From Heyndrickxia ginsengihumi (GTDB taxonomy: Bacteria; Bacillota; Bacilli; Bacillales; Bacillaceae_C): a stretch of DNA of 64,000 nucleotides. The DNA lies in the NCBI RefSeq assembly GCF_011008565.1, contig NZ_JAAIWK010000021.1:1-64000 (forward strand). Direction: 5' to 3'. The position numbers and the translations under genes are program-made. Of the stretch, positions 32,390-49,221 are shown piece by piece (position 1 is the stretch's first letter; each line of letters begins with the position of its first letter). The notes below the pieces were generated by a model. It saw only the letters and a program-made list of their open reading frames with translations. It was not told the DNA's origin and made no database searches.

Positions 32390-33625
32390 TTGACCACAAG
32401 AGTACGTCGTTCTGGATTATTATATGCAAATCATGAACAAGCATACCATTGTCTCATATGCTTTAGTGCAGAGGATGGTAAAACTCATTTAATAGATATG
32501 AATGGGCAGGAAGTTCATCAATGGAAATACCACGGACTTCCTGGTGAGGTTATCAATCCAACATTAATTAATGGCAAGCGTGGGCATATCCTAGTACAAT
32601 ACGAAATGCTAGAAGAACGTACTTTCGGAATATTCGGAAATAAAACAGTAGCCGAGGTGGATTGGGATGGACAATTAATCTGGAAATGGGGAGAACAAGC
32701 TCCTGGTGGGGCTGCAAGGCAGAATCATGACTGGCAGCGTCTCTCCAATGGCAACACTATGCTGATGATTACTCAGCCCCGTGTTATCCCTATGTTAGGT
32801 GATGTGGAGGTCGGTGATCAAGGTATATTTGAAGTCAATCCAGCCGGTGATATCGTATGGAGTTGGCTTGCAGGGGATCATATTGAAGAATTTGGGTTTT
32901 CACAGCAAGGGCTGAATTATCTACGGAACATACTGAACAATAAAGAGCAAGATCCATGGGGATACCTCGAACTTAACACTCTGCAGCTATTAGGACCAAA
33001 CAAGTGGTATGACAACGGAAACGAAGTATTCCATCCGGACAATATCATAATTAGTTCAAGAAAAGGTAACTTTGTTGCGATTATCGAGAAAAAAACTGGA
33101 AATGTAGTATGGAAGATTGGTCCATACAGTAATGTTAATGCCAACCCTTATTATCGCCTTTTAAACAGAGCAGTTCCACGCCCTCTCGATCAAACTTGTG
33201 GTCAACATAAACCACACTTGATCCCTAAGGGGCTTCCTGGAGCAGGAAATTTGTTGCTATTAGACAATCAAGGTAGTTCAGGGTACCCGCCAGTTTCCCT
33301 TGGTACCTATGCTGGCTCAAGAATTCTCGAAATAAATCCAACAACAAAAGAAATTGTTTGGCAATATACTGCGGAGAATTCTGGAAATCCCGTTTGGTCA
33401 TTCCATACATCTTTCGTTGGAAATACACAAAGATTACCCAATGGCAACACTTTAATCAACGAAGGAATGAATGGTCGCATCTTTCAGATTACGAATTCGG
33501 GTGAGATCGTGTGGGAATATATAAATTCATATCCGGGTTTCTTCTCTGCGGGTAAAGACACTATTGAAAATCCAATGGTTTATCGAGCTCAAGCAGTTCC
33601 TGTTGATTGGCTCCCTGAGCTATAA
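32390..33625 (+). CDS. arylsulfotransferase (ASST)-family beta-propeller
   Basis: A 411-residue protein built from about six blades with a recurring 'G-I/V-V/I-W' strand: HLIDMNGQEVHQW, AEVDWDGQLIWKW, FEVNPAGDIVWSW, AIIEKKTGNVVWKI, LEINPTTKEIVWQY and FQITNSGEIVWEY. HDWQRLSNGNTM and FHTSFVGNTQRLPNGNTL are typical of arylsulfotransferase family members. Classical ASSTs are periplasmic and use a catalytic His; this one has no signal peptide and would be cytoplasmic, so the reaction is uncertain. The start is TTG with AAGGAGG 7 nt upstream. It is flanked by an attenuator-like hairpin and a terminator. Confidence 0.75.
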   Translation: MTTRVRRSGLLYANHEQAYHCLICFSAEDGKTHLIDMNGQEVHQWKYHGLPGEVINPTLINGKRGHILVQYEMLEERTFGIFGNKTVAEVDWDGQLIWKWGEQAPGGAARQNHDWQRLSNGNTMLMITQPRVIPMLGDVEVGDQGIFEVNPAGDIVWSWLAGDHIEEFGFSQQGLNYLRNILNNKEQDPWGYLELNTLQLLGPNKWYDNGNEVFHPDNIIISSRKGNFVAIIEKKTGNVVWKIGPYSNVNANPYYRLLNRAVPRPLDQTCGQHKPHLIPKGLPGAGNLLLLDNQGSSGYPPVSLGTYAGSRILEINPTTKEIVWQYTAENSGNPVWSFHTSFVGNTQRLPNGNTLINEGMNGRIFQITNSGEIVWEYINSYPGFFSAGKDTIENPMVYRAQAVPVDWLPEL

Positions 33626-38777: not shown

Positions 38778-39971
38778 ATGGAAAAACGACTGAACGAGCA
38801 ATCCTTAAACAGGAATGTACCGCAGCCGATAAGAAATGATGGTGCTGGTGCAACTGATTTCGGTCCTCGGGATGTAATAAGAGACCTTGAGAATCCAGAC
38901 ATGTTAATATCACCTGCTACTGACGATGGAGCCGTTCCTAATTTAAAATTTTCCTATTCAGACACTCATATGCAGTTAAAGCACGGAGGCTGGTCACGTG
39001 AAATAACCGTTCGAGAGCTTCCTACTGCAACTGCTCTTGCAGGAGTGAATATGCGTCTGACGCCTGGGGGTGTACGTGAGTTACATTGGCATAAGCAATC
39101 TGAGTGGGCCTATATGATTTTAGGGCACGCACGTATTACATCAGTCGACCAGGACGGAAGGAATTTTATCGCTGATGTCAGCGCAGGGGATTTATGGTTC
39201 TTTCCCGCTGGAATTCCTCACTCAATTCAAGGATTAGAGGAAGGATGCGAATTTCTGCTCGTCTTTGATGACGGAAGCTTTTCTGAATTTGATACCTTCA
39301 CTATTACAGATTGGTTTGCACATACACCGAAGGATGTACTAGCCGCAAATTTTGGTGTGCCTGAAAGCGCCTTTGCTGACATTCCAACAAAACAGCGCTA
39401 TATTTTCCAAACAAAAGTACCCGGTTTGTTAGAAAATGATGAAGTATCAGATGCTTATGGCACTGTACCAAAAAGCTTCACATATCGCTTGCATGAACAA
39501 CAACCGGTAGTAACACCGGGCGGAACGGTACGCATTGTTGATTCTACTAATTTTCCTATTTCTACTACAATTGCAGCGGCGTTAGTAGAAATCAAACCTG
39601 GCGGAATGAGAGAACTGCATTGGCATCCTAATGCAGATGAATGGCAATATTACCTTACAGGAACGGGGCGTATGACGGTATTTGCAGCAAATGGTTCAGC
39701 CCGTACGTTTAATTATCGGGCCGGAGATGTAGGATATGTACCGTTTGCCATGGGGCATTATATCCAAAACACCGGTAATCAAAGCTTATGGTTTTTGGAA
39801 ATCTTTAAAAGTGATCATTATGCTGATGTGTCATTAAACCAATGGATGGCGTTAACTCCAAAAGAACTCGTACAAGAGCACTTAAATGTAGGACCAGAGC
39901 TAATGAACGCATTAAGGAAGGAAAAATGGCCAGTTGTGGATTACAGAGGTCAATCGGCATTCTTGGAATAA
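38778..39971 (+). CDS. oxdC: oxalate decarboxylase
   Basis: A 397-residue bicupin that splits oxalate to formate and CO2. Each cupin has a complete Mn site: H103, H105, E109 and H148 in the first, H281, H283, E288 and H327 in the second. The flexible lid that carries the catalytic Glu (SENST in B. subtilis OxdC) reads SEFDT at 169-173, keeping the Glu (E170) but changing the following residues. Lid sequence is known to tune decarboxylase versus oxidase chemistry. No signal peptide is present. AAAGGAG precedes the ATG. It may equally be called OxdD-like; no acid-response element was identified. Confidence 0.92.
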
Positions 39972-40287: not shown

Positions 40288-41193
40288 TTATTTTATTGTT
40301 GATCGCTCTGAAATAGCAACCAATACATCGGAATAGTGAGTAGGAACATTGCCATGAAAGTAATTTTTCAAATTCATGTCAGCAATACTTTGTAATTTTG
40401 TTTTGACCGCCTTTGCCATCGTAGCATCCAGCTTCATCTCATTTAAGGTTGCAACAACTTCATTCATCTCAGTAACTCTTCTTTCAGCATGAATGGCTGT
40501 GCGTGTAATTAATAGGTTAGCCAATTCTTCAATTGTAGATCCAGAAAGCGTTTCTTGAACCGATGCTAAAATTTCTTTATCCACTCCTGCTTCATGACTA
40601 GCTGATAATGTTTCAAGCAATAAAGACGTAAACCCTTTCATAAAAATGCTTCTGAACATTTTCATGGCCGACGAGATACCTGCTGTTTCACTAATAAAAG
40701 TAATATCCATTCCAAATTGTTTCATTAATAATTCATATTTAGCAGCACCAGTTCCGCTTACGAGCATAGGAACTTTATGACCATAAGGGGGAACTGGCGC
40801 CATTACAGCAGCATCAACGAATAATCCTCCTACCGTTTCTATCACAGCAGCAACTTCTTTTTTTATACTTGGTGATGCTGAGTTTAAATCTATATACATT
40901 TTTCCCTTCATAAAGCTGTTTGCCACATCTTGTGCAATTTCAAGTGCATATTTAGCACTCGTTGCACAAAATATCACGTCGCAATTCTTTATGAGCACTT
41001 CCAACGAATTGTCTTTATTTACCTCAGCAGTTTCCATCCTTTCTTTTATTTTTATTCCTGCACTAGGATGATCTGCCATCACGTCAAAAGCATGAATCGC
41101 TTGAATACCATCTTGTCTTAGCCCCTTACTAATATGAAAGGCAGCTTCACCAAATCCAATGAAACCAATAATTGGTATGGTTGTTGTATCCAT
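40288..41193 (-). CDS. NAD(P)-dependent oxidoreductase, 6PGDH-like with DUF1932
   Basis: A 301-residue dehydrogenase of the beta-hydroxyacid/6-phosphogluconate type. The Rossmann motif IGFIGFGEAAFHISKGL is near the N-terminus; YIDLNSASPSIKKEVA follows; the C-terminal helical part matches DUF1932 (MKMFRSIFMKGFTSLLLETL, RRVTEMNEV). The substrate is unknown. Position at the end of the RidA-GalC-GalB operon suggests a semialdehyde or keto-acid intermediate of the aromatic route; this is inference. The ATG at 41193 with AGGATC upstream is preferred to an earlier GTG. Confidence 0.8.
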   Translation of the reverse strand: MDTTTIPIIGFIGFGEAAFHISKGLRQDGIQAIHAFDVMADHPSAGIKIKERMETAEVNKDNSLEVLIKNCDVIFCATSAKYALEIAQDVANSFMKGKMYIDLNSASPSIKKEVAAVIETVGGLFVDAAVMAPVPPYGHKVPMLVSGTGAAKYELLMKQFGMDITFISETAGISSAMKMFRSIFMKGFTSLLLETLSASHEAGVDKEILASVQETLSGSTIEELANLLITRTAIHAERRVTEMNEVVATLNEMKLDATMAKAVKTKLQSIADMNLKNYFHGNVPTHYSDVLVAISERSTIK

Positions 41194-41243
41194 AAAAACA
41201 AGATCCTTTCTTGGTAATCTAATTTCTTCAATCACGCATTACA

Positions 41244-41627
41244 TTATGATAAGACTGCAGTCATTTCAATCTGGACTCTAAGCCCTTCCCTTAAGTTTTG
41301 AACGGTACTATGTCTGGCCGGACGATTATTTTCATCTGGAAACATTTTAATCCACTCTACATTGACAACTTTTTTATATTCCCGATCTGTTACTAAAACA
41401 CTTAAATGTGCAATATCATCGGTCGTTCCTCCAGCAAGCTCCATAATTTCTCTCATGTAATGAAAAAGATTTGCAACTTCTTCTTGAACACTTTCTGGCA
41501 TTTCACCTGTCTCCGGATCCGAACCGATAATTGCTGAAGTATAAACCATATTTCCAATCTTCACAGCTGTCGGAATTGGATTTTGATGATTCGATCCTTT
41601 TACATGAAGAACCTCACGTTTTGCCAT
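41244..41627 (-). CDS. RidA-family deaminase
   Basis: A 127-residue RidA/YjgF-family protein. Conserved stretches include NPIPTAVKIGNMVYTSAIIG, ELAGGTTDDIAHLSV and the RPARHSTVQNL region near the active-site Arg, ending in VQIEMTAVL. Family members hydrolyse imines and enamines; one branch is 2-aminomuconate deaminase in aminophenol degradation. Its place in a ring-cleavage operon makes that role plausible. The second ATG (9 nt after AAGGAG) is chosen over the ATG at 41633, only 3 nt from the ribosome site. Confidence 0.87.
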   Translation of the reverse strand: MAKREVLHVKGSNHQNPIPTAVKIGNMVYTSAIIGSDPETGEMPESVQEEVANLFHYMREIMELAGGTTDDIAHLSVLVTDREYKKVVNVEWIKMFPDENNRPARHSTVQNLREGLRVQIEMTAVLS

Positions 41628-41744
41628 AGCCATTCACTCCTTTTTAAAAAGTCCTGCTGAGAACCAATTCATATAAGAATGGATGCAAAAAACTATTTTT
41701 TAATTGCTTGGATAAGTAAGCTAGCATGGGCCTTATTTAATGAT

Positions 41745-42449
41745 TTAACAGCTTTTTTCAAGTTCATCCTCATTTTCATAATAAACAACCTGTTCATTAG
41801 CCAATGTCGGTCTGAGGTTGTAGAAATCTAAGCTCAATTCTCCTCTTAATATTTTTTCTTTTGTAGTCGTTTCTTTTAGGATTCTCTTTTTAGATAATTC
41901 AAGTGAAGCATGAATATCTCCTTTTTGTACAACGACTACACCATCATCATCAGCCATAACCAAATCCCCTGGACAGACATTTACACCACCGCAAACTGTT
42001 GGTGCGTTCACCCAGCCGCCCTTCGTTTTTGTTGTGCCTTGTGAATGAATGGCTCGAGTCCATATTGGAAATCCCATCTCTCTTATTTCAGCTACATCCC
42101 GAATAGCAGAATCAATAATAACTCCTTGAACACCGCGCTTCTGTAAAGCGGTTACAATCAATTCACCTATCATCCCTGCAATACATTCTCCGACTGTAGT
42201 AATAACTAATATATCACCCGGTTTGCATACTTCAATTGCGGCATGAATCATTAAGTTATCCCCTGCATAACAAACTGCTGTTACAGCTGGTCCGCATATT
42301 TTAGTATTTGAAATAATCGGTTGCAATTGTGGATCCATAATACCGCTCTTGCCTTGTGCTTCGTAAATTGTCGAGACACTTAAATCCATATATTCATCTA
42401 GTATTTTTAGCTCCGGTCTTTTAATATTTTTTACGATATATTTTTCCAT
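41745..42449 (-). CDS. RraA-family aldolase (4-carboxy-4-hydroxy-2-oxoadipate aldolase-like)
   Basis: A 234-residue class II pyruvate aldolase of the RraA fold. The core GDNLMIHAAIEVCKPGDILV, GVQGVIIDSAIRDVAEI and MADDDGVVVV carry the Arg/Asp metal- and substrate-binding positions of GalC/LigK/HMG aldolases, which cleave 4-carboxy-4-hydroxy-2-oxoadipate to pyruvate and oxaloacetate. The start ATG overlaps the stop of the upstream PIG-L gene (TGATG). Together with the GalB-like neighbour it forms the lower part of a gallate/protocatechuate 4,5-type pathway. Confidence 0.82.
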   Translation of the reverse strand: MEKYIVKNIKRPELKILDEYMDLSVSTIYEAQGKSGIMDPQLQPIISNTKICGPAVTAVCYAGDNLMIHAAIEVCKPGDILVITTVGECIAGMIGELIVTALQKRGVQGVIIDSAIRDVAEIREMGFPIWTRAIHSQGTTKTKGGWVNAPTVCGGVNVCPGDLVMADDDGVVVVQKGDIHASLELSKKRILKETTTKEKILRGELSLDFYNLRPTLANEQVVYYENEDELEKSC

Positions 42450-43177
42450 CAAACAAATTCACCCCCAACATAAGGGAAGAAGCGACTAAATGCTTCAGCA
42501 TATTTATATTCATTGTTACCTGAGCAGCGTCTTGCATGGTTACCACGTAATTCAGCTTTTGCACTATAATATTTAATTAAATGTTGTTGTGCTTTAAAGC
42601 AATTCATGGCAGCAACTTTCTGTTCATAGGTTTCGGTAATATCAATAATCACTTCTGGTTTAAAATCGCTAATTTCTGATTGGTGTGGTTCAAAACCGAA
42701 CAATTTCGCCTGTTTTGCCGTCGGATACCCCTCTATTCTTACACCATTAGATGTTGATAAAACACTTGCATCAAATACGAATTTGGATACGGTTTCATGA
42801 TCAGGATTAAAAGCGTCCCTTGGGCCATGACTCAATATTGATTGCGGCTTTACTTCTCTGATTTTCCGAACTAATCGATCCATCCTTTCCGGAGTAATTG
42901 TCATATGATAATCTTCAAAATCCCAAAATTCAATATTATTTACTCCTAAACACGCTGCCGCTGCTTCAATTTCACTGTGGCGAATTGACTTTACATTTTC
43001 AAGTGTTTGCCCATCCTGCTTCCAAAGATCATTAGATTCTCCTCTTGCACCATAACTTAAAATAACGAGTGAAACATTTGCATACTTCGCATACTTAGCA
43101 ATTGTACCTCCGCCTCTCCAAACAAAATCAGCTGCATGGGCGCTGACAACCAATAAGTTTTCTTTGTTATCAATCAT
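42449..43177 (-). CDS. PIG-L-family protein, GalB-like 4-oxalomesaconate hydratase candidate
   Basis: A 242-residue PIG-L/LmbE-type zinc protein. The metal motif AHAADFVWRGGG replaces the usual AHPDD, retaining His and Asp, and GPRDAFNPDHETV supplies the later His. Most PIG-L proteins are deacetylases, but Pseudomonas GalB of this fold hydrates 4-oxalomesaconate. Linkage and overlap with a GalC-like aldolase strongly favour the hydratase role. The ATG at 43177 has GAGGAGGAG upstream. It is the first gene of the leftward four-gene operon. Confidence 0.78.
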   Translation of the reverse strand: MIDNKENLLVVSAHAADFVWRGGGTIAKYAKYANVSLVILSYGARGESNDLWKQDGQTLENVKSIRHSEIEAAAACLGVNNIEFWDFEDYHMTITPERMDRLVRKIREVKPQSILSHGPRDAFNPDHETVSKFVFDASVLSTSNGVRIEGYPTAKQAKLFGFEPHQSEISDFKPEVIIDITETYEQKVAAMNCFKAQQHLIKYYSAKAELRGNHARRCSGNNEYKYAEAFSRFFPYVGGEFV

Positions 43178-43551
43178 GCAATCTCCTCCTCGTATAGGTT
43201 TCATTTATAATTAAATTAAAACCTTTATATTTAATCTAAATTATCTGAATTTTAAACCGGAGCAAATACTTGATAAATACCTAGCCTCAATCAAAGTATA
43301 ATATTGTTTTCTACTACTCCATGTCATTGTCTTTACATAACTGATTTTCTAATAGATTTGTAATTTACTAGATGTTAATTGATTTTGGTCGGAATGTAGT
43401 AACTCATTAATGTTCACTATCAAACGGTGAATAATCTGTATCCATTCACTTCGTTAAAATCACTAGACTTTCATTCGAACATTGAAGTTTCTTAACAGTT
43501 ACTCACCCTTTTGTAAAACCTCTAAGTTACGTAGAAAAGTAAGGAACATAC

Positions 43552-43605
43552 ATATTAATATTCACCATTTGCCAATCAAAATTGTTCAACAATATTGTTT
43601 ACAAA
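43552..43605 (-). promoter_or_regulatory. promoter and GntR operator of the leftward aromatic operon
   Basis: On the minus strand TTGATT (43574-43579) and TAATAT (43552-43557) are 16 nt apart. Just upstream of the -35 is the perfect palindrome ATTGTTCAACAAT (43581-43593), followed by the imperfect ATTGTTTACAAAT (43593-43605). The same palindrome occurs at the dioxygenase promoter. The predicted leader to the PIG-L gene is about 370 nt and holds no other gene; the remaining spacer to 43797 is also empty. Confidence 0.6.
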
Positions 43606-43797
43606 TAGGATTTTATATCAAATCGATTATTCTGTCAACTGCGATTTTATTTAAAATTCAAATTACTCATTAAGATGTATCTTTATAGGTAAGCGTTTTC
43701 TAGAGGTCTTCTCTCATTAATGAGAGAAGATGAAAAGAAGTAAAATATTTATACTGATTATTGCAAAAGTGGAATCAAAACTAAATACATTATGATA

Positions 43798-44439
43798 TTA
43801 CATAAGAAAAGAATAATTCTCTGCAATTGTGCGTCTTACTTGTGAGATATGATATTTCACGGCATCTTCTACCCACTTCTCATCTCTCAGTTTTAACGCA
43901 TTCAATATTTTTTGATGTTCTTTAAATGATTCCTCATGCCTTCCCGGAACCAAAATAGTTTTCAATTGAAAGCGACGAAGCTGTGTTTTGATCATTTGAA
44001 CCATTGATACGGCTTGCGTATTAGAAGAAGCTTCGTAAATAATATTATGAAAAGATAAGTTGCAATTTGAATATTCATCGAAACGATGATTTTCCAAATG
44101 CCCTTTCATCTCTTCCAAAATATTTTCCATTAAACTTAACTTATCCTCACTTATATAAGGCGCGGCAGTTTTGGCAATAAGCCCCTCCAACACTTCACGA
44201 ATTTCAAGAAACTGAACAATTTCATCTAAAGTGAATGACTTCACCGTTGCACCTTTATTCGTCTCAATACAAACTAAATTTTCTTGTTGAAGCTTTAATA
44301 ATGCTTTTTTAATTGTGTTTCTACTGGCATTAATTAGATTAGACAGATCGCTTTCAATGAGCTTTTGCGAAGGTTGATAAGTACCGTCTAAAATCCTCTG
44401 CTTTATGAATTGATAAGCTACCTCCATTTGTGTACTCAT
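43798..44439 (-). CDS. GntR-family regulator (FCD type)
   Basis: A 213-residue regulator. The N-terminal winged helix reads YQFIKQRILDGTYQPSQKL, then SRNTIKKALLKLQQENLV; the C-terminal all-helical FCD ligand domain (about 75-205) has FLEIREVLEG, the Asp/His metal positions in NLSFHNIIYEAS and the final EHQKILNALKLRD. FCD regulators usually repress catabolic genes until they bind a pathway acid. It lies between two oppositely directed catabolic units that share the ATTGTT-N-AACAAT palindrome, its probable site. Confidence 0.9.
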   Translation of the reverse strand: MSTQMEVAYQFIKQRILDGTYQPSQKLIESDLSNLINASRNTIKKALLKLQQENLVCIETNKGATVKSFTLDEIVQFLEIREVLEGLIAKTAAPYISEDKLSLMENILEEMKGHLENHRFDEYSNCNLSFHNIIYEASSNTQAVSMVQMIKTQLRRFQLKTILVPGRHEESFKEHQKILNALKLRDEKWVEDAVKYHISQVRRTIAENYSFLM

Positions 44440-44600
44440 TTTCTTAACCCCATTTTCTTTAGAATTCTAAATAAATAGCACCATAATTGTTGAAATATTT
44501 ATAAAAAAAATATAACGTAAGAACTTTAAAACTGTCAATTTAAAATCCTCCCCCCATTTATTAGCAGTTCGTATTTTTGTTTAGAATTTTTAAACTATTA

Positions 44601-44646
44601 TTGACATTGAATTTTATTATATTTATAATCAATATTGTTTAACAAT
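44601..44646 (+). promoter_or_regulatory. dioxygenase promoter with operator
   Basis: A consensus sigma-A promoter, TTGACA (44601-44606), 17 nt, TATAAT (44624-44629). The perfect palindrome ATTGTTTAACAAT (44634-44646) covers the predicted start site. A half-site-like ATTGTTGAA lies near 44487 in front of the GntR gene. A repressor bound here would block initiation. Confidence 0.75.
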
Positions 44647-44674
44647 TTTGTATTTATAAAGGGGAGTGAATTTC

Positions 44675-45631
44675 ATGAGTTCTTATGAGGAACCAATACT
44701 AGATGTAGCCCATTTAGGACATATTGAGCTTTTAACGCCAAAAATTGAAGAAAGTGTAGATTTTTTTAAAAATGTAATGGGAATGGAAGTTGTCCATCAA
44801 AAAAAACAATCCATGTATTTAAGAGCGTGTCGAGATTATGAATCTTATAGTCTAAAATTAACTGAATCAAAAGAACCCGGGTTAGGTCATATGGCAATGC
44901 GAACTTATAGTAGTAAAACGCTTGAGCGTCGTGCTCTTGCAATTGAAGAAAGCGGTTTTGGAATTGGATGGAGTGATGGAGACTTCGGCCATGGTAAAAG
45001 TTATCAATTTACTGATCCAGATGGTCATACTATGGAACTCTATTATGAGACAGAAAAATATAACCCACCTCCGCACTTGGTCCCTGCTTTAAAAAATCAA
45101 CCACAAAAGTGTACTTCAAGAGGAGTTTGTGTAAAGCAGCTCGATCATATTAACTTATTTGCTTCAGATGTAGATCAAAACTCTCAATTTATGCGCAAAA
45201 CATTAGGATGCAAGCTTAGTGAACAGATTATTCTAGACATCGGTAAACAAGGAGGGGCTTGGTTACATTTAACGAATAAAGCTTATGAAATTGCCTATAC
45301 ATTGGACAGTACAGGTGCAAAAGGGAGATTACACCATATTACTTATAATGTCGACAGCCGTGAAGCAGTATTACAAGCAGCCGATGTCTTTTTAGAAAAT
45401 GGAGTTTTTATTGAATTTCCTCCTAGTAAACATGCCATTCAGCAAACTTATGCGATGTACGTATACGAACCTGGTGGTACACGAATTGAAATATGCCACG
45501 GAGGATATTCGATTACTGCGCCTGATTGGGAACCAATTACATGGACTGAAGCCGAACGTGCCAAGGGGCAAGCATGGGGAAATAAAACTGTTCCTACCTT
45601 TCATACTTACGGAACACCAAATATTATATAA
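44675..45631 (+). CDS. type I extradiol ring-cleavage dioxygenase
   Basis: A 318-residue two-domain vicinal-oxygen-chelate protein of the catechol 2,3-dioxygenase class. The C-terminal domain has the Fe(II) triad: H158 in QLDHINL, a His in RLHHITY (220/221) and E272 in GGTRIEIC. The N-terminal domain (about 11-125) is the structural repeat, ending DPDGHTMELYYE. It should open a catechol- or aminophenol-type ring. The substrate is not readable from sequence; neighbours point to a carboxylated ring. GGGGAG lies 8 nt before the ATG at 44675, chosen over GTG 44666. Confidence 0.88.
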   Translation: MSSYEEPILDVAHLGHIELLTPKIEESVDFFKNVMGMEVVHQKKQSMYLRACRDYESYSLKLTESKEPGLGHMAMRTYSSKTLERRALAIEESGFGIGWSDGDFGHGKSYQFTDPDGHTMELYYETEKYNPPPHLVPALKNQPQKCTSRGVCVKQLDHINLFASDVDQNSQFMRKTLGCKLSEQIILDIGKQGGAWLHLTNKAYEIAYTLDSTGAKGRLHHITYNVDSREAVLQAADVFLENGVFIEFPPSKHAIQQTYAMYVYEPGGTRIEICHGGYSITAPDWEPITWTEAERAKGQAWGNKTVPTFHTYGTPNII

Positions 45632-45703
45632 AATATTTTTGTAAACGCTGTCATTTTTTTGAATGGAAATTTCATGGTCAAAATCAATAAGGGGAGTGGA
45701 AAC

Positions 45704-47044
45704 ATGCCAAACCATTCAGTAAAAAATTTTTTAGACACAAGCAAATTTAATCGCTTTCATACTGTTTTATTGCTTTGGGGACTTTTCACGATTTCTTTTG
45801 AAGGATATGACTTAGTTGTTTATGGATCTGTGGTTCCAATCTTATCTAAAGATTGGGGCCTATCTCCGATCCAGGCAGGCATTATAAGCAGTTATGGTCT
45901 TTTTGGAATGATGTTTGGTTCAATCATTCTCAGCTTTTTAGCTGATAAGTTCGGACGTAAATTACTTATTATCATCTCTATTATCTTTTTCAGCCTTGCC
46001 ACAGTAATATCGGGCTTCGCTAATAATGAAACAATGTTTTCTTGGTGCAGGTTCCTAGCCGGAATCGGATTTGGAGGAGCTTTGCCTTCTGTAATATCAC
46101 TTCTTACAGAATATATTCCTAAATCGAGCAAAAATAAAGCGATTACATTAGCCTTGTGCGGAAATCAGGTCGGGGGCATCCTTGCACCGCTTGTCGGTAT
46201 GATATTTCTTACATCATCCGGTTGGAGGCCTGTCCTCTGGTTCTCTATTATTCCTTTGCTTTTAATCCCTTTCATCATAAAATCATTACCAGAATCCCCA
46301 CAATTTTTAATTCGTAAAGGGAAAATAGATGAATTACATCGTACTTTAAAAAGAATTGATCCAAATTATAAAAACCGTATGATTGAATCCATTCAGGAGC
46401 CTGAAACAAAAACTGAAAAAATTCCATTTATTGGACTGTTTCAAAACAAGTTGGCACTTACAACAATTATTTTCTGCATCGTATACTTTATGGGGTTGTT
46501 AATGATCTATGGCTTGAATACGTGGCTCCCTAAATTAATGGAAACAGCAGGATATCCATTAATCTCTAGTCTTGGTTTTGCGCTTTTTTTAAATGGAGGT
46601 GCACTACTGGGAACAATCGTAATTGGTGTTTTAGCTGATCGAAAGGGATCAAAAGTATTAATTACTTGTCTATATGTTCTTGGTGCAATATGCCTTGCCC
46701 TTCTCAGCATCAAAAGCAACGTATTCTTTCTCTATTTATTAATAGCATTAGCAGGTGTATGCACAATGGGAACGCAAAGTTTATTAAACGCATTTGTTTC
46801 TCAATATTACCCTGAAAATGTACGTTCAACTGGAATTGGCTTAGCAAACGGAGTTGGTAGGCTAGGCGGAATGGTTGGGCCAACTTTAGGTGGAATACTT
46901 TTATCGATGAAGGCACCGATTGGGATGTGCTTTATTGCCTTTTCTATTCCTGGCTTTATCGCAGCATTAGCACTACTTCTCATACGAAGAAAGAATAGTG
47001 AAACATCCACCATTCAATCAAAAACCAATTTAACACTAGAATAA
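45704..47044 (+). CDS. MFS transporter, aromatic acid:H+ symporter (AAHS)
   Basis: A 446-residue twelve-helix transporter. The first helix carries FEGYDLVVYG, the AAHS signature; loop 2-3 has LADKFGRK and loop 8-9 LADRKGSK. PcaK and BenK relatives import protocatechuate, 4-hydroxybenzoate or benzoate with protons. It follows the dioxygenase by 72 nt and is under the same regulated promoter. Start 45704 has GGGGAGTGG upstream; an earlier in-frame start at 45659 lacks a ribosome site. Confidence 0.9.
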   Translation: MPNHSVKNFLDTSKFNRFHTVLLLWGLFTISFEGYDLVVYGSVVPILSKDWGLSPIQAGIISSYGLFGMMFGSIILSFLADKFGRKLLIIISIIFFSLATVISGFANNETMFSWCRFLAGIGFGGALPSVISLLTEYIPKSSKNKAITLALCGNQVGGILAPLVGMIFLTSSGWRPVLWFSIIPLLLIPFIIKSLPESPQFLIRKGKIDELHRTLKRIDPNYKNRMIESIQEPETKTEKIPFIGLFQNKLALTTIIFCIVYFMGLLMIYGLNTWLPKLMETAGYPLISSLGFALFLNGGALLGTIVIGVLADRKGSKVLITCLYVLGAICLALLSIKSNVFFLYLLIALAGVCTMGTQSLLNAFVSQYYPENVRSTGIGLANGVGRLGGMVGPTLGGILLSMKAPIGMCFIAFSIPGFIAALALLLIRRKNSETSTIQSKTNLTLE

Positions 47045-47700: not shown

Positions 47701-47729
47701 GACAGCTTAACAAAGAAAGGAGAATGATG

Positions 47730-48653
47730 ATGTATCGTTTTCGCGCAATGAATACAAACATTGAAACTTTTTATTTAGGCAGCAAACATTGCCAACAGAC
47801 TGAAGCATGGTTCCACCACGTGGAAAAAACGCTTAGTCGTTTCTTGCCGGAAAGTGAATTGTCCCAATTGAATAGAACTGAAAATACACCCTTTTTGGCT
47901 AGCGATGTCCTATATGAAGCAGTCACAACAGCAGATAGATTCTATCATGAAACAGAAGGCATTTTTAATCCATATCTCGGCCGTGAAATTTGTCAGCTTG
48001 GCTACGATCAAAGCTTTGAAAAAATTGCAGCTGGCAAAGCAACATCATATAACCGCGATCAGTTGTCCTGTACTAAAGAAAAGCCGATTGAAATTGATGA
48101 CAAGATGAGGTTCATTACAATACACGGTGCACTTATTGATCTCGGTGGAATTGGAAAAGGATGGACCGCTCAGCAAGCAGCAAATCAATTGCAAAAGAAA
48201 AAAGTGGCATATGGCGGTATTGCCGCAGGCGGAGATATTATTGTCTGGGGAAAGCCAAAAGAAAAGTGGAATATTACTATTTCAACCCCGGAATCATGGG
48301 AAAAAAAATTATTTTCTTTCAAGCTCGATCGTCCAGCAGGGATTGCAACTAGCAGTACCATTAGAAGAAGCTGGAAAGATCATAACGGGAAAACGTTTCA
48401 CCATATTCTCGATCCGCGCACATGCCAAAGCGCCAACACTGACCTAGTTCAAGCAAGCGTGATCGCTCCTGATCTGATCACTGCAGAAGTTTATGCGAAA
48501 TGCATGATTATTTTAGGTTGGGAAAAAGGGATGGAATGGATCGCAGGAAAACGCACAGATCTAGGAATTATCGGTGTTAAAACAGACCACTCTATCGTAA
48601 CTGGCGGGACAATCCGCTGCTATTCTTCGGAAGGACTGATTTACTTTGAATGA
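47730..48653 (+). CDS. apbE: FAD:protein FMN transferase, ApbE
   Basis: A 307-residue ApbE-family flavin transferase. The motifs IDLGGIGKGW, GGIAAGGDI, GIATSSTIRR and HHILDPRT are all present; the late Mg-binding stretch reads LITAEVYAKCMIIL. It attaches FMN covalently to a Thr or Ser of a target protein. It has no clear signal peptide, so transfer may be cytoplasmic or export may be unrecognised. Three consecutive ATG codons (47724, 47727, 47730) follow AGGAG; the last has the best spacing. The ferric-reductase-like gene overlaps its end. Confidence 0.9.
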   Translation: MYRFRAMNTNIETFYLGSKHCQQTEAWFHHVEKTLSRFLPESELSQLNRTENTPFLASDVLYEAVTTADRFYHETEGIFNPYLGREICQLGYDQSFEKIAAGKATSYNRDQLSCTKEKPIEIDDKMRFITIHGALIDLGGIGKGWTAQQAANQLQKKKVAYGGIAAGGDIIVWGKPKEKWNITISTPESWEKKLFSFKLDRPAGIATSSTIRRSWKDHNGKTFHHILDPRTCQSANTDLVQASVIAPDLITAEVYAKCMIILGWEKGMEWIAGKRTDLGIIGVKTDHSIVTGGTIRCYSSEGLIYFE

Positions 48654-49221
48654 ATTATTAAATAATGTTCACCACTTCATGCCCGTTTGGACGGTTTCAC
48701 GTGCTGCCGGTATTACTTCATATTTGTTATTATTTGTATCTGTTATGACAGGAATGAGCGCACATTATCATTTTATGAAGGCAAAAACTAAAGCCAGAAT
48801 GAACCTGATACATCAGTCAACAGGATGGTTCGGCATGTTATTCGGGATGACACATGGGTTGATTCTAATCTTTAGTACATATCAATCATTTTCGATTTTG
48901 GAAGTCATCATCCCATTTGCTTCTAAAACACATCCGCTGCTGATTGGAATTGGAACTTTGGCGCTTTATGTGATGATTATATTAATTGTGACATCGGATT
49001 ACATGAAAGTACTTGGCCGAAAAACATGGAAGACGATACACTTTTTAGCCTTTCCAGCATTTATCAGTGCGTTTTTCCACAGTGTTTTGCTAGGCCCTGA
49101 TTCACATTATCCCTTTATGATGTTTTTATACTGCCTAACAGCAATCATTACCGTTGTGGCGCTTATCTGTAGAATTGCTGTCCGTCCGCCAAAAAAAGAA
49201 CTAACATCAACGCAAAAGTAA
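48646..49221 (+). CDS. ferric-reductase-like transmembrane cytochrome
   Basis: A 191-residue polytopic protein with about six helices of the ferric reductase-like transmembrane type. Paired His residues H56/H70 (LIHQSTGWFGMLFGMTH) and H132/H145 (TIHFLAFPAFISAFFH) have the 13-14-residue spacing that holds two stacked b hemes. No flavin or NADH domain is fused, so electrons must come from or go to a partner, perhaps a flavinylated protein made by ApbE. The start is TTG, overlapping apbE by 8 nt. Confidence 0.82.
   Translation: MNELLNNVHHFMPVWTVSRAAGITSYLLLFVSVMTGMSAHYHFMKAKTKARMNLIHQSTGWFGMLFGMTHGLILIFSTYQSFSILEVIIPFASKTHPLLIGIGTLALYVMIILIVTSDYMKVLGRKTWKTIHFLAFPAFISAFFHSVLLGPDSHYPFMMFLYCLTAIITVVALICRIAVRPPKKELTSTQK

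Follow-up and report, generated by a model that had tools for sequence, protein, structure and literature searches.

The stretch of DNA analysed here (hereafter the window) comprises 64,000 nucleotides of the Heyndrickxia ginsengihumi genome. Between positions 40288 and 47044 it carries a seven-gene cluster that we read, with a probability of about one half, as a single GntR-controlled regulon, assembled from non-orthologous parts, that would take up a plant-derived 3,4-dihydroxylated benzoate and open it by meta-cleavage of the 4,5 type; protocatechuate is the most likely substrate in this species and gallate or 3-O-methylgallate in some of its relatives. An importer of the aromatic-acid:H+ symporter (AAHS) type would bring in the acid, a type I extradiol dioxygenase would open its ring in place of LigAB/GalA, and a DUF1932 dehydrogenase would act in place of LigC, leading to 2-pyrone-4,6-dicarboxylate (PDC). 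A RidA-family protein would then take the place of LigI and/or the GalD tautomerase, at a step where most of the 25 relatives (genomes with a GalB homologue, one per species and often draft, which the genome counts out of 25 below cover) would use a DUF6282 amidohydrolase. A GalB-type hydratase followed by a 4-carboxy-4-hydroxy-2-oxoadipate (CHA) aldolase would complete the conversion to pyruvate and oxaloacetate. In the known route, with the names used in PMC12314914, ring cleavage leads to PDC or to 4-carboxy-2-hydroxymuconate (CHMA)/4-oxalomesaconate (OMA); LigI opens PDC, GalD/LigU isomerises OMA to 2-keto-4-carboxy-3-hexenedioate (KCH), and GalB hydrates KCH. The last two enzymes, the common operator and the exchange of RidA for DUF6282 are well supported at the sequence level; the substrate, the reaction of DUF1932 and the exact reaction of RidA we infer.

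The hydratase and aldolase steps form the firmest part of the predicted pathway. The PIG-L family protein (42449–43204, minus strand; by the starts of its homologues, translation probably begins at codon 10, 43177) has the 4-oxalomesaconate hydratase PDB 5cgz as its best solved relative (E 8e-45), with deacetylases coming next at 2e-6 or worse, and it falls under every listed NCBIfam cut-off. In PIG-L deacetylases the catalytic aspartate sits in an HPDD motif; this is replaced by HAAD in the window protein and in all 24 homologues inspected (of 26), the three spirochaete ones reading GHAAD, and the Agrobacterium and Azospirillum counterparts have HAAD/HSAD. The two other PIG-L proteins of the H. 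ginsengihumi genome have HPDD and HADD. On the motif and the structure match a deacetylase was rejected, as anticipated in the original prediction, which had been made from the sequence alone, and a GalB-type 4-oxalomesaconate/KCH hydratase is the well supported assignment. The RraA-type protein (41745–42452, minus strand) exceeds the cut-off of the CHA aldolase family NF006731 (262 bits against 179), remains under that of the stricter TIGR02798 (226 against 304.5), and finds its best structure in the CHA aldolase PDB 3noj (3e-60), with the motif IDSAIRD; a CHA aldolase in the GalC/LigK role is likewise well supported. The GalB/GalC ending foreseen earlier, of the kind that yields pyruvate and oxaloacetate, is upheld by these matches. 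The three spirochaete loci have a different RraA protein (32–36% identical).

All seven cluster genes are intact open reading frames (ORFs) of the window, and every protein belongs to a Pfam family above cut-off, in agreement with the families and positions first assigned. Related loci came from a GalB alignment search (24 loci), to which the window and one further genome were added (26 loci), the gene content being determined by tblastn. GalB homologues of 61–85% identity have a similar set of neighbours in Bacillota and Spirochaetota, and a 45% homologue lies on a Thermus plasmid; the recurrent partners of the GalB-RraA pair are a GntR regulator, DUF1932, DUF6282 or RidA, a dioxygenase in some loci and varied importers. 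A chance grouping of the genes was ruled out by this similar company and by an operator that recurs with it across many genomes. The 10-mer CAATATTGTT occurs in the non-coding stretches of 17 of 25 loci (at most 4 in five shuffles), the full palindrome being CAAWATTGTTNAACAATWTTG (21 bp). At up to 2 mismatches, the 3.7-Mb H. ginsengihumi genome holds just two sites (none with the reversed pattern), both in the cluster and neither with a strand: CAAAATTGTTCAACAATATTG at 43577–43597, upstream of the GalB-RraA-RidA-DUF1932 operon at a distance of 373 bp from the annotated GalB start, and CAATATTGTTTAACAATTTTG at 44630–44650, directly 5' of the ribosome-binding site (RBS) of the dioxygenase gene. 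With the same tolerance at least one site was found in 22 of the 25 genomes, within the cluster for 21 of them and only elsewhere in G815, against 1 of 25 in the reversed control. The GntR/FCD-family regulator (43798–44439, minus strand; PF00392, PF07729) has a homologue in 23 of the 26 loci according to clustering, and because of the constant company of regulator and site it is presumed to bind the palindrome.

Sites also stand before unlinked genes: about 22 bp upstream of the longest ORF (2495–2887) of the unlinked RidA protein of G812, before the stand-alone second dioxygenase of Paenibacillus thalictri (L074, C18:134526), and before a formaldehyde dehydrogenase-dioxygenase pair in P. naphthalenovorans (L023). 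Nine further unlinked sites at 2 mismatches, three of them inside ORFs and none beside a recognised aromatic gene, were attributed to chance, even though the reversed control, with one site, falls well short of nine. Overall, one regulon with a common operator is a well supported prediction for the cluster genes.

The RidA-family protein (41244–41633, minus strand; PF01042) alternates with DUF6282 among the relatives. RidA proteins of its subfamily (74–100% identity) occur in 10 of the 25 genomes and DUF6282 (47–100%) in 16; nine have RidA alone, 15 DUF6282 alone, one both and none neither. Fisher's test gives 4.9e-6, a value that overstates independence and counts for less than it seems, because the label clusters among related genomes of the GalB tree, as low a value being reached by 7 and 13 of 500 shuffles. 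The raw RidA cut-off (E<=1e-25) was passed by 11 genomes, of which G811 was moved out, its two copies being 45–46% identical and lying in another aromatic cluster; counted as a RidA genome, it would bring the class with both to 2 of 25. The class of G815 rests on a DUF6282 gene on a contig other than L028, which begins at GalB, and neither a second, 36% copy of DUF6282 in this genome nor a 59% copy in G809 was counted separately. The sole genome with both, P. thalictri, has two clusters (L020 and L021), one per kind. Mapped onto the GalB tree, the label changes 5 times (4–6 in bootstrap trees), 2 of the changes being forced by well supported branches. The cleanest exchange case is L024 (G812), which has the gene order of its close kin L021/L025 minus DUF6282, with an 89% identical RidA on another contig.

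A LigI-like query (a PF04909 protein of Azospirillum that lies in a LigAB cluster and was for that reason regarded as LigI) found no match at E<=1e-10 in the H. ginsengihumi genome, as expected from the originally noted lack of a LigI-type lactonase, and one weak 28% match across 27 records (the 25 genomes and two plasmids). The PrpF/GalD family is missing from 14 of the 25 genomes, including 7 of the 10 with RidA. Given this near-absence of LigI relatives and the gaps in the PrpF/GalD family, RidA or DUF6282 remains as the only constant candidate for the step missing before GalB. The DUF6282 amidohydrolase corresponds to PF19799 (two members scanned) and is predicted to fold into a phosphotriesterase/TatD-like barrel (predicted local distance difference test score, pLDDT, 89; structure comparison Z about 20); its sequence profile gave no PDB match below E 0.09. 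A LigI identity found no support, Foldseek/VIA giving phosphotriesterase/TatD/NagA types; that LigI was not among the matches listed carries no weight against it. The modelled barrel speaks for hydrolysis and, with it, for PDC opening as the step concerned. Since RidA and DUF6282 stand in for each other, RidA most likely performs the step feeding GalB (PDC opening or oxalomesaconate isomerisation) rather than an aminophenol-specific deamination. RidA proteins act on an alpha-carbon carrying nitrogen and a carboxylate; PDC would offer the same place with oxygen for nitrogen, where attack by water would suit the RidA fold naturally, as would an enol-keto tautomerisation once the acid is opened. 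The balance tilts slightly towards a RidA-family protein that has left nitrogen chemistry to become a C–O catabolic enzyme, opening PDC or isomerising 4-oxalomesaconate, and that has been repeatedly swapped with DUF6282, a metal-type hydrolase to which it is unrelated, under one conserved operator, in a core that also degrades a further non-aromatic acid.

The original prediction had taken RidA as the mark of an aminophenol substrate. On this model DUF1932 would oxidise the ring-opened 3-amino-4-hydroxybenzoate (or a similar acid), RidA would deaminate the product to 4-oxalomesaconate, and GalB/GalC would split the latter; the DUF6282 of the relatives, which the prediction did not cover, would be an alternative deaminase. 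We consider this improbable. The product logic fits, and amidohydrolases are, from general knowledge, capable of deamination. A RidA-family 2-aminomuconate deaminase is described in excerpts of PMC6742747, and Arg107 and Glu123 of the window protein, both conserved, align with the active-site residues of E. coli RidA, for which part of PMC4433059 gives the roles of Arg and Glu in RidA imine deaminases. The RidA protein is 75–91% identical to 8 aligned homologues and belongs to a distinct, strongly conserved subfamily, and the Ser-Gly cleft pair, Ser35-Gly36 in AmnE according to the excerpts of PMC6742747, is Ser-Ala in all 9 aligned members. The 2-aminomuconate deaminase 6IZH, whose presence in the database was unchecked, is not among the best 60 of 62 solved-structure matches of the subfamily profile, where ordinary RidA proteins stand; the structure model of the protein is modest (pLDDT 77) and was used for the fold alone. 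RidA is not bound to the dioxygenase, which 3 of the 10 RidA genomes lack, 15 of the 25 core genomes have DUF6282 instead of RidA, the cluster holds no aldehyde dehydrogenase (ALDH), and the gene neighbourhoods of the relatives suggest oxygen-only aromatics. The only nitrogen-type families common to loci (read by eye) are ornithine-aminotransferase-, dehydrogenase- and arginase-like, in two sister Paenibacillus loci with DUF6282, not RidA. A split in which RidA deaminates in certain species and the amidohydrolase in others keeps a small probability; of the substrates once envisaged, a carboxylated catechol stays likely and the aminophenol does not.

RidA proteins recur in aromatic clusters. 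A more distant one (36%) on plasmid pNL1 is flanked by an amidohydrolase and an RraA protein, together with ring-hydroxylating dioxygenase genes. Reminiscent of this group is a stretch of P. naphthalenovorans (L119:1991-16241, read by eye) with two RidA proteins (45% relatives), ring-hydroxylating dioxygenase subunits, an IlvD-like dehydratase, an amidohydrolase and a LigB-type dioxygenase.

The dioxygenase (44666–45631, plus strand; start probably at ATG 44675, behind the RBS) matches NCBIfam TIGR03211 (catechol_2_3; 342 bits against a cut-off of 320) and PDB 9wgj (443 bits). Its His-His-Glu motif positions are H161, H223 or H224, and E275, which we take by position to be the Fe ligands, and the type I enzyme with an Fe triad described at first thus stands. 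There is no type II (LigB-family) enzyme in the cluster; the claimed absence of LigAB/GalA holds at this level. Elsewhere in H. ginsengihumi one LigB-family (PF02900) protein is encoded (G000:C4:24486-25172). An ordinary catechol enzyme was rejected, as the genome has a separate catechol meta-cleavage operon (G000:C25:32699-33634, L079), and its catechol 2,3-dioxygenase, 43% identical to the window enzyme, falls in a different part of the tree; by eye, the other genes of the operon resemble those for 2-hydroxymuconic semialdehyde (HMS) dehydrogenase, oxopentenoate hydratase, acetaldehyde dehydrogenase, an aldolase and a decarboxylase. Both dioxygenase trees are of limited strength, as one contained two wrongly translated rows and the other a single such row (L016); support was retained for the catechol group and lost for the branching order of the cluster enzymes. 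The window enzyme departs from the catechol group in some basic residues, which are no proof of a carboxylate pocket, because the L075/L076 paralogues share them. The adjoining importer of the major facilitator superfamily (45659–47044, plus strand) is AAHS-like, scoring 342 bits with TIGR00895, below the cut-off of 418.55, and has homologues of 64–72% identity in clusters L008, L017, L026 and L035. Across the related loci the importer is AAHS, tripartite tricarboxylate (TTT), TRAP-TAXI or TRAP-DctPQM (tripartite ATP-independent periplasmic) or sugar-type ATP-binding cassette (ABC), the non-AAHS kinds being read by eye.

The neighbours of related dioxygenases, namely a 4-hydroxybenzoate hydroxylase, an annotated tannase and a formaldehyde dehydrogenase, make protocatechuate, gallate or their methyl ethers the likely inputs. 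On the Thermus plasmid (L041) the dioxygenase, DUF6282, PIG-L, LigK and DUF1932 lie alongside a 4-hydroxybenzoate 3-monooxygenase, which passes the subfamily model NF006091 (470 against 351) and remains under the cut-off of the equivalog TIGR02360 (403 against 539). An Agrobacterium plasmid joins the dioxygenase, PIG-L and LigK to an OMA tautomerase (NF033377, 494 against 440) and the annotated tannase, with a DUF1932-type gene about 5 kb away. In P. naphthalenovorans (L023) a glutathione-independent formaldehyde dehydrogenase (TIGR02819, 776 against a cut-off of 637) accompanies the dioxygenase; excerpts of PMC12314914 place fdhA2 of Pseudomonas NGC7 with galBCD, the dehydrogenase removing formaldehyde from syringate.

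The DUF1932 protein (40288–41235, minus strand; start probably an internal Met) is a 6-phosphogluconate-dehydrogenase-like NAD(P) oxidoreductase (PF09130, 58.7 bits, cut-off 25; PF03446, 25 bits, cut-off 21). Its PDB matches 4ezb (2e-44) and 3qsg (7e-42) have titles that assign no function, and the family occurs in 18 of the 25 genomes. It is a candidate dehydrogenase of the ring-cleavage aldehyde 4-carboxy-2-hydroxymuconate-6-semialdehyde (CHMS); a LigC-type (Gfo/Idh/MocA) CHMS dehydrogenase is not present among the cluster genes, no genome-wide search having been made. Because the CHMS dehydrogenase step is needed for the protocatechuate route and not for gallate, DUF1932 in the window cluster favours protocatechuate.

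A gallate pathway proper is possible but doubtful. Here the dioxygenase would give enol 4-oxalomesaconate, RidA would be the tautomerase in the GalD role before GalB and GalC, and DUF1932 would belong to a protocatechuate side branch. Such a scheme would match the Pseudomonas gal set gene for gene (transporter GalT, dioxygenase, tautomerase, hydratase, aldolase and regulator). L008, L017 and L035 hold exactly the AAHS importer, dioxygenase, GalB, RraA, RidA and GntR, and are free of a dehydrogenase; the importer of L029 is of the DctPQM kind, and L020 lacks GntR in its stretch. The genomes of L029 and L035 have no DUF1932 anywhere at E<=1e-20, which fits this scheme. The OMA tautomerase of the Agrobacterium counterpart and the lack of PrpF/GalD in most RidA genomes point the same way. 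The modelled DUF6282 barrel, however, is rather that of a hydrolase than of a tautomerase, RidA adjoins DUF1932 within one operon in the window, and RidA or DUF6282 is retained in clusters without any dioxygenase.

Several observations weigh against the protocatechuate-centred reading preferred here. DUF1932 may not be the CHMS dehydrogenase, its assignment being weakened because it persists in genomes in which no dioxygenase was found, and G816 (L029) and G822 (L035) have RidA and the dioxygenase with no DUF1932 genome-wide at E<=1e-20 (G384 and G806 have it elsewhere). H. ginsengihumi has an unlinked PrpF-family protein (G000:C2:80620-81735), with none in the cluster. The Agrobacterium tannase name comes from annotation, NCBIfam assigning no family, and neither homology nor phylogeny fixes the substrate of the dioxygenase, because close dioxygenases also occur in other gene company (L075, L076). 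Moreover, 13 of the 25 core genomes lack a type I dioxygenase (E<=1e-30), and six of these (G807, G810, G821, G824, G825, G827) also lack a LigB-family match, while G820 has one below cut-off only. DUF1932 is kept in 4 of the 6 dioxygenase-free genomes, and the importers in all 6 clusters are of the TTT or TRAP-TAXI kind. It seems that some other dioxygenase escaped the searches, or else that the core has a second role in processing an imported non-aromatic acid.

The latter thought can be carried further: the GalB-aldolase-DUF1932-(DUF6282 or RidA) module would mainly degrade an imported non-aromatic poly-carboxylate akin to 4-oxalomesaconate or PDC, and certain lineages, H. ginsengihumi among them, would have gained the dioxygenase and AAHS importer so as to channel aromatic acids into it. 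The dioxygenase-free genomes, the by-eye TTT, TRAP and sugar-type ABC importers, and three spirochaete contigs with GalB, DUF6282 and GntR homologues are consistent with it. It is nevertheless improbable as the main function, as no natural substrate is known to fit and the dioxygenase absences cover type I and LigB searches, not cupin-type or distant enzymes, in one often-draft genome per species. The spirochaete contigs (L037, L038, L039) hold DUF6282, a TRAP-TAXI importer, a GalB-like protein (61–64%), GntR and a different RraA-type protein; in two of them xanthine-dehydrogenase-like subunits adjoin the module, which may have an anaerobic use there. Further by-eye groups are L077:6526-9297 and L078:7619-11750, with an RraA-like protein, DUF1932 (40–41%), a dihydroorotase-like amidohydrolase and an RpiR-type regulator, and L010:9078-16271, with a 42% GalB-like and an RraA-like protein, a similar amidohydrolase, an RpiR-type regulator and TRAP/TTT importers.

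Within its own lineage the cluster is accessory, as the GalB-like gene is rare: among 34 genomes of the same family it was found in H. ginsengihumi alone (E<=1e-30), the other 4 species of the genus being without it, and in 4 of 397 genomes of the order (E<=1e-25, H. ginsengihumi included), one of them just 42% identical. The G+C content of the cluster, 35.4%, is close to that of the flanks, 37.5 and 37.1%. A bicupin protein of the oxalate decarboxylase kind (38778–39971) adjoins the cluster and is not among the genes common to related loci; an arylsulfotransferase (ASST) homologue at 32390–33625 is unusual near such a locus and possibly tied to aromatic sulphate esters, and an ApbE-like flavin transferase is followed by a ferric-reductase-like membrane protein at 47724–49221.

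The reading gives concrete predicted functions to the RidA subfamily, DUF6282 and the DUF1932 clade, and it leads one to expect in Bacillota (and Thermus) a route for lignin and tannin products of the protocatechuate/gallate type, a route that routine annotation would overlook because several enzymes are non-orthologous; the operator offers a means to locate unlinked regulon members. In the literature searches no paper was recognised as giving either RidA or DUF6282 a place in such a pathway; neither 9WGJ nor DUF6282 was named in the searched texts, and DUF1932 was named in unrelated work only.

The gene combination is unusual, as originally stated, and its nearest known systems each share a part of it. 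With the gal pathway of Pseudomonas putida KT2440 and NGC7 (GalA, GalD, GalB, GalC, GalR; excerpts of PMC12314914) it has in common GalB- and GalC-type enzymes, an aromatic-acid symporter, a dedicated regulator and, in one relative, a co-regulated formaldehyde dehydrogenase; it differs in a type I instead of a type II dioxygenase, RidA instead of a PrpF-type GalD, GntR instead of LysR, and the extra DUF1932. Protocatechuate 4,5-cleavage (lig/pmd/pca; Sphingobium, Comamonas, Pseudarthrobacter) has the same hydratase and CHA aldolase roles and would run through equally many steps should DUF1932 act as CHMS dehydrogenase, whereas the window cluster is without a LigAB-type or LigI-type gene, has RidA (or DUF6282 in relatives) for LigI, and shows no LigC-type dehydrogenase. 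The 2-aminophenol pathway (AmnE) likewise sets a RidA-family protein beside a ring-cleavage dioxygenase, but the window cluster lacks its semialdehyde dehydrogenase (ALDH), oxalocrotonate decarboxylase and oxopentenoate hydratase, and its RidA is swappable with an amidohydrolase. Plasmid pTHEOS01 of Thermus oshimai (L041) shares the catechol-2,3-dioxygenase-type enzyme, GntR, PIG-L, LigK and DUF1932, and differs in having DUF6282 instead of RidA, a 4-hydroxybenzoate hydroxylase, an ALDH and ABC importers. By gene content, the cluster would be a variant of the known 4,5-cleavage route, whose new and surprising part is the apparent exchange of RidA and DUF6282.

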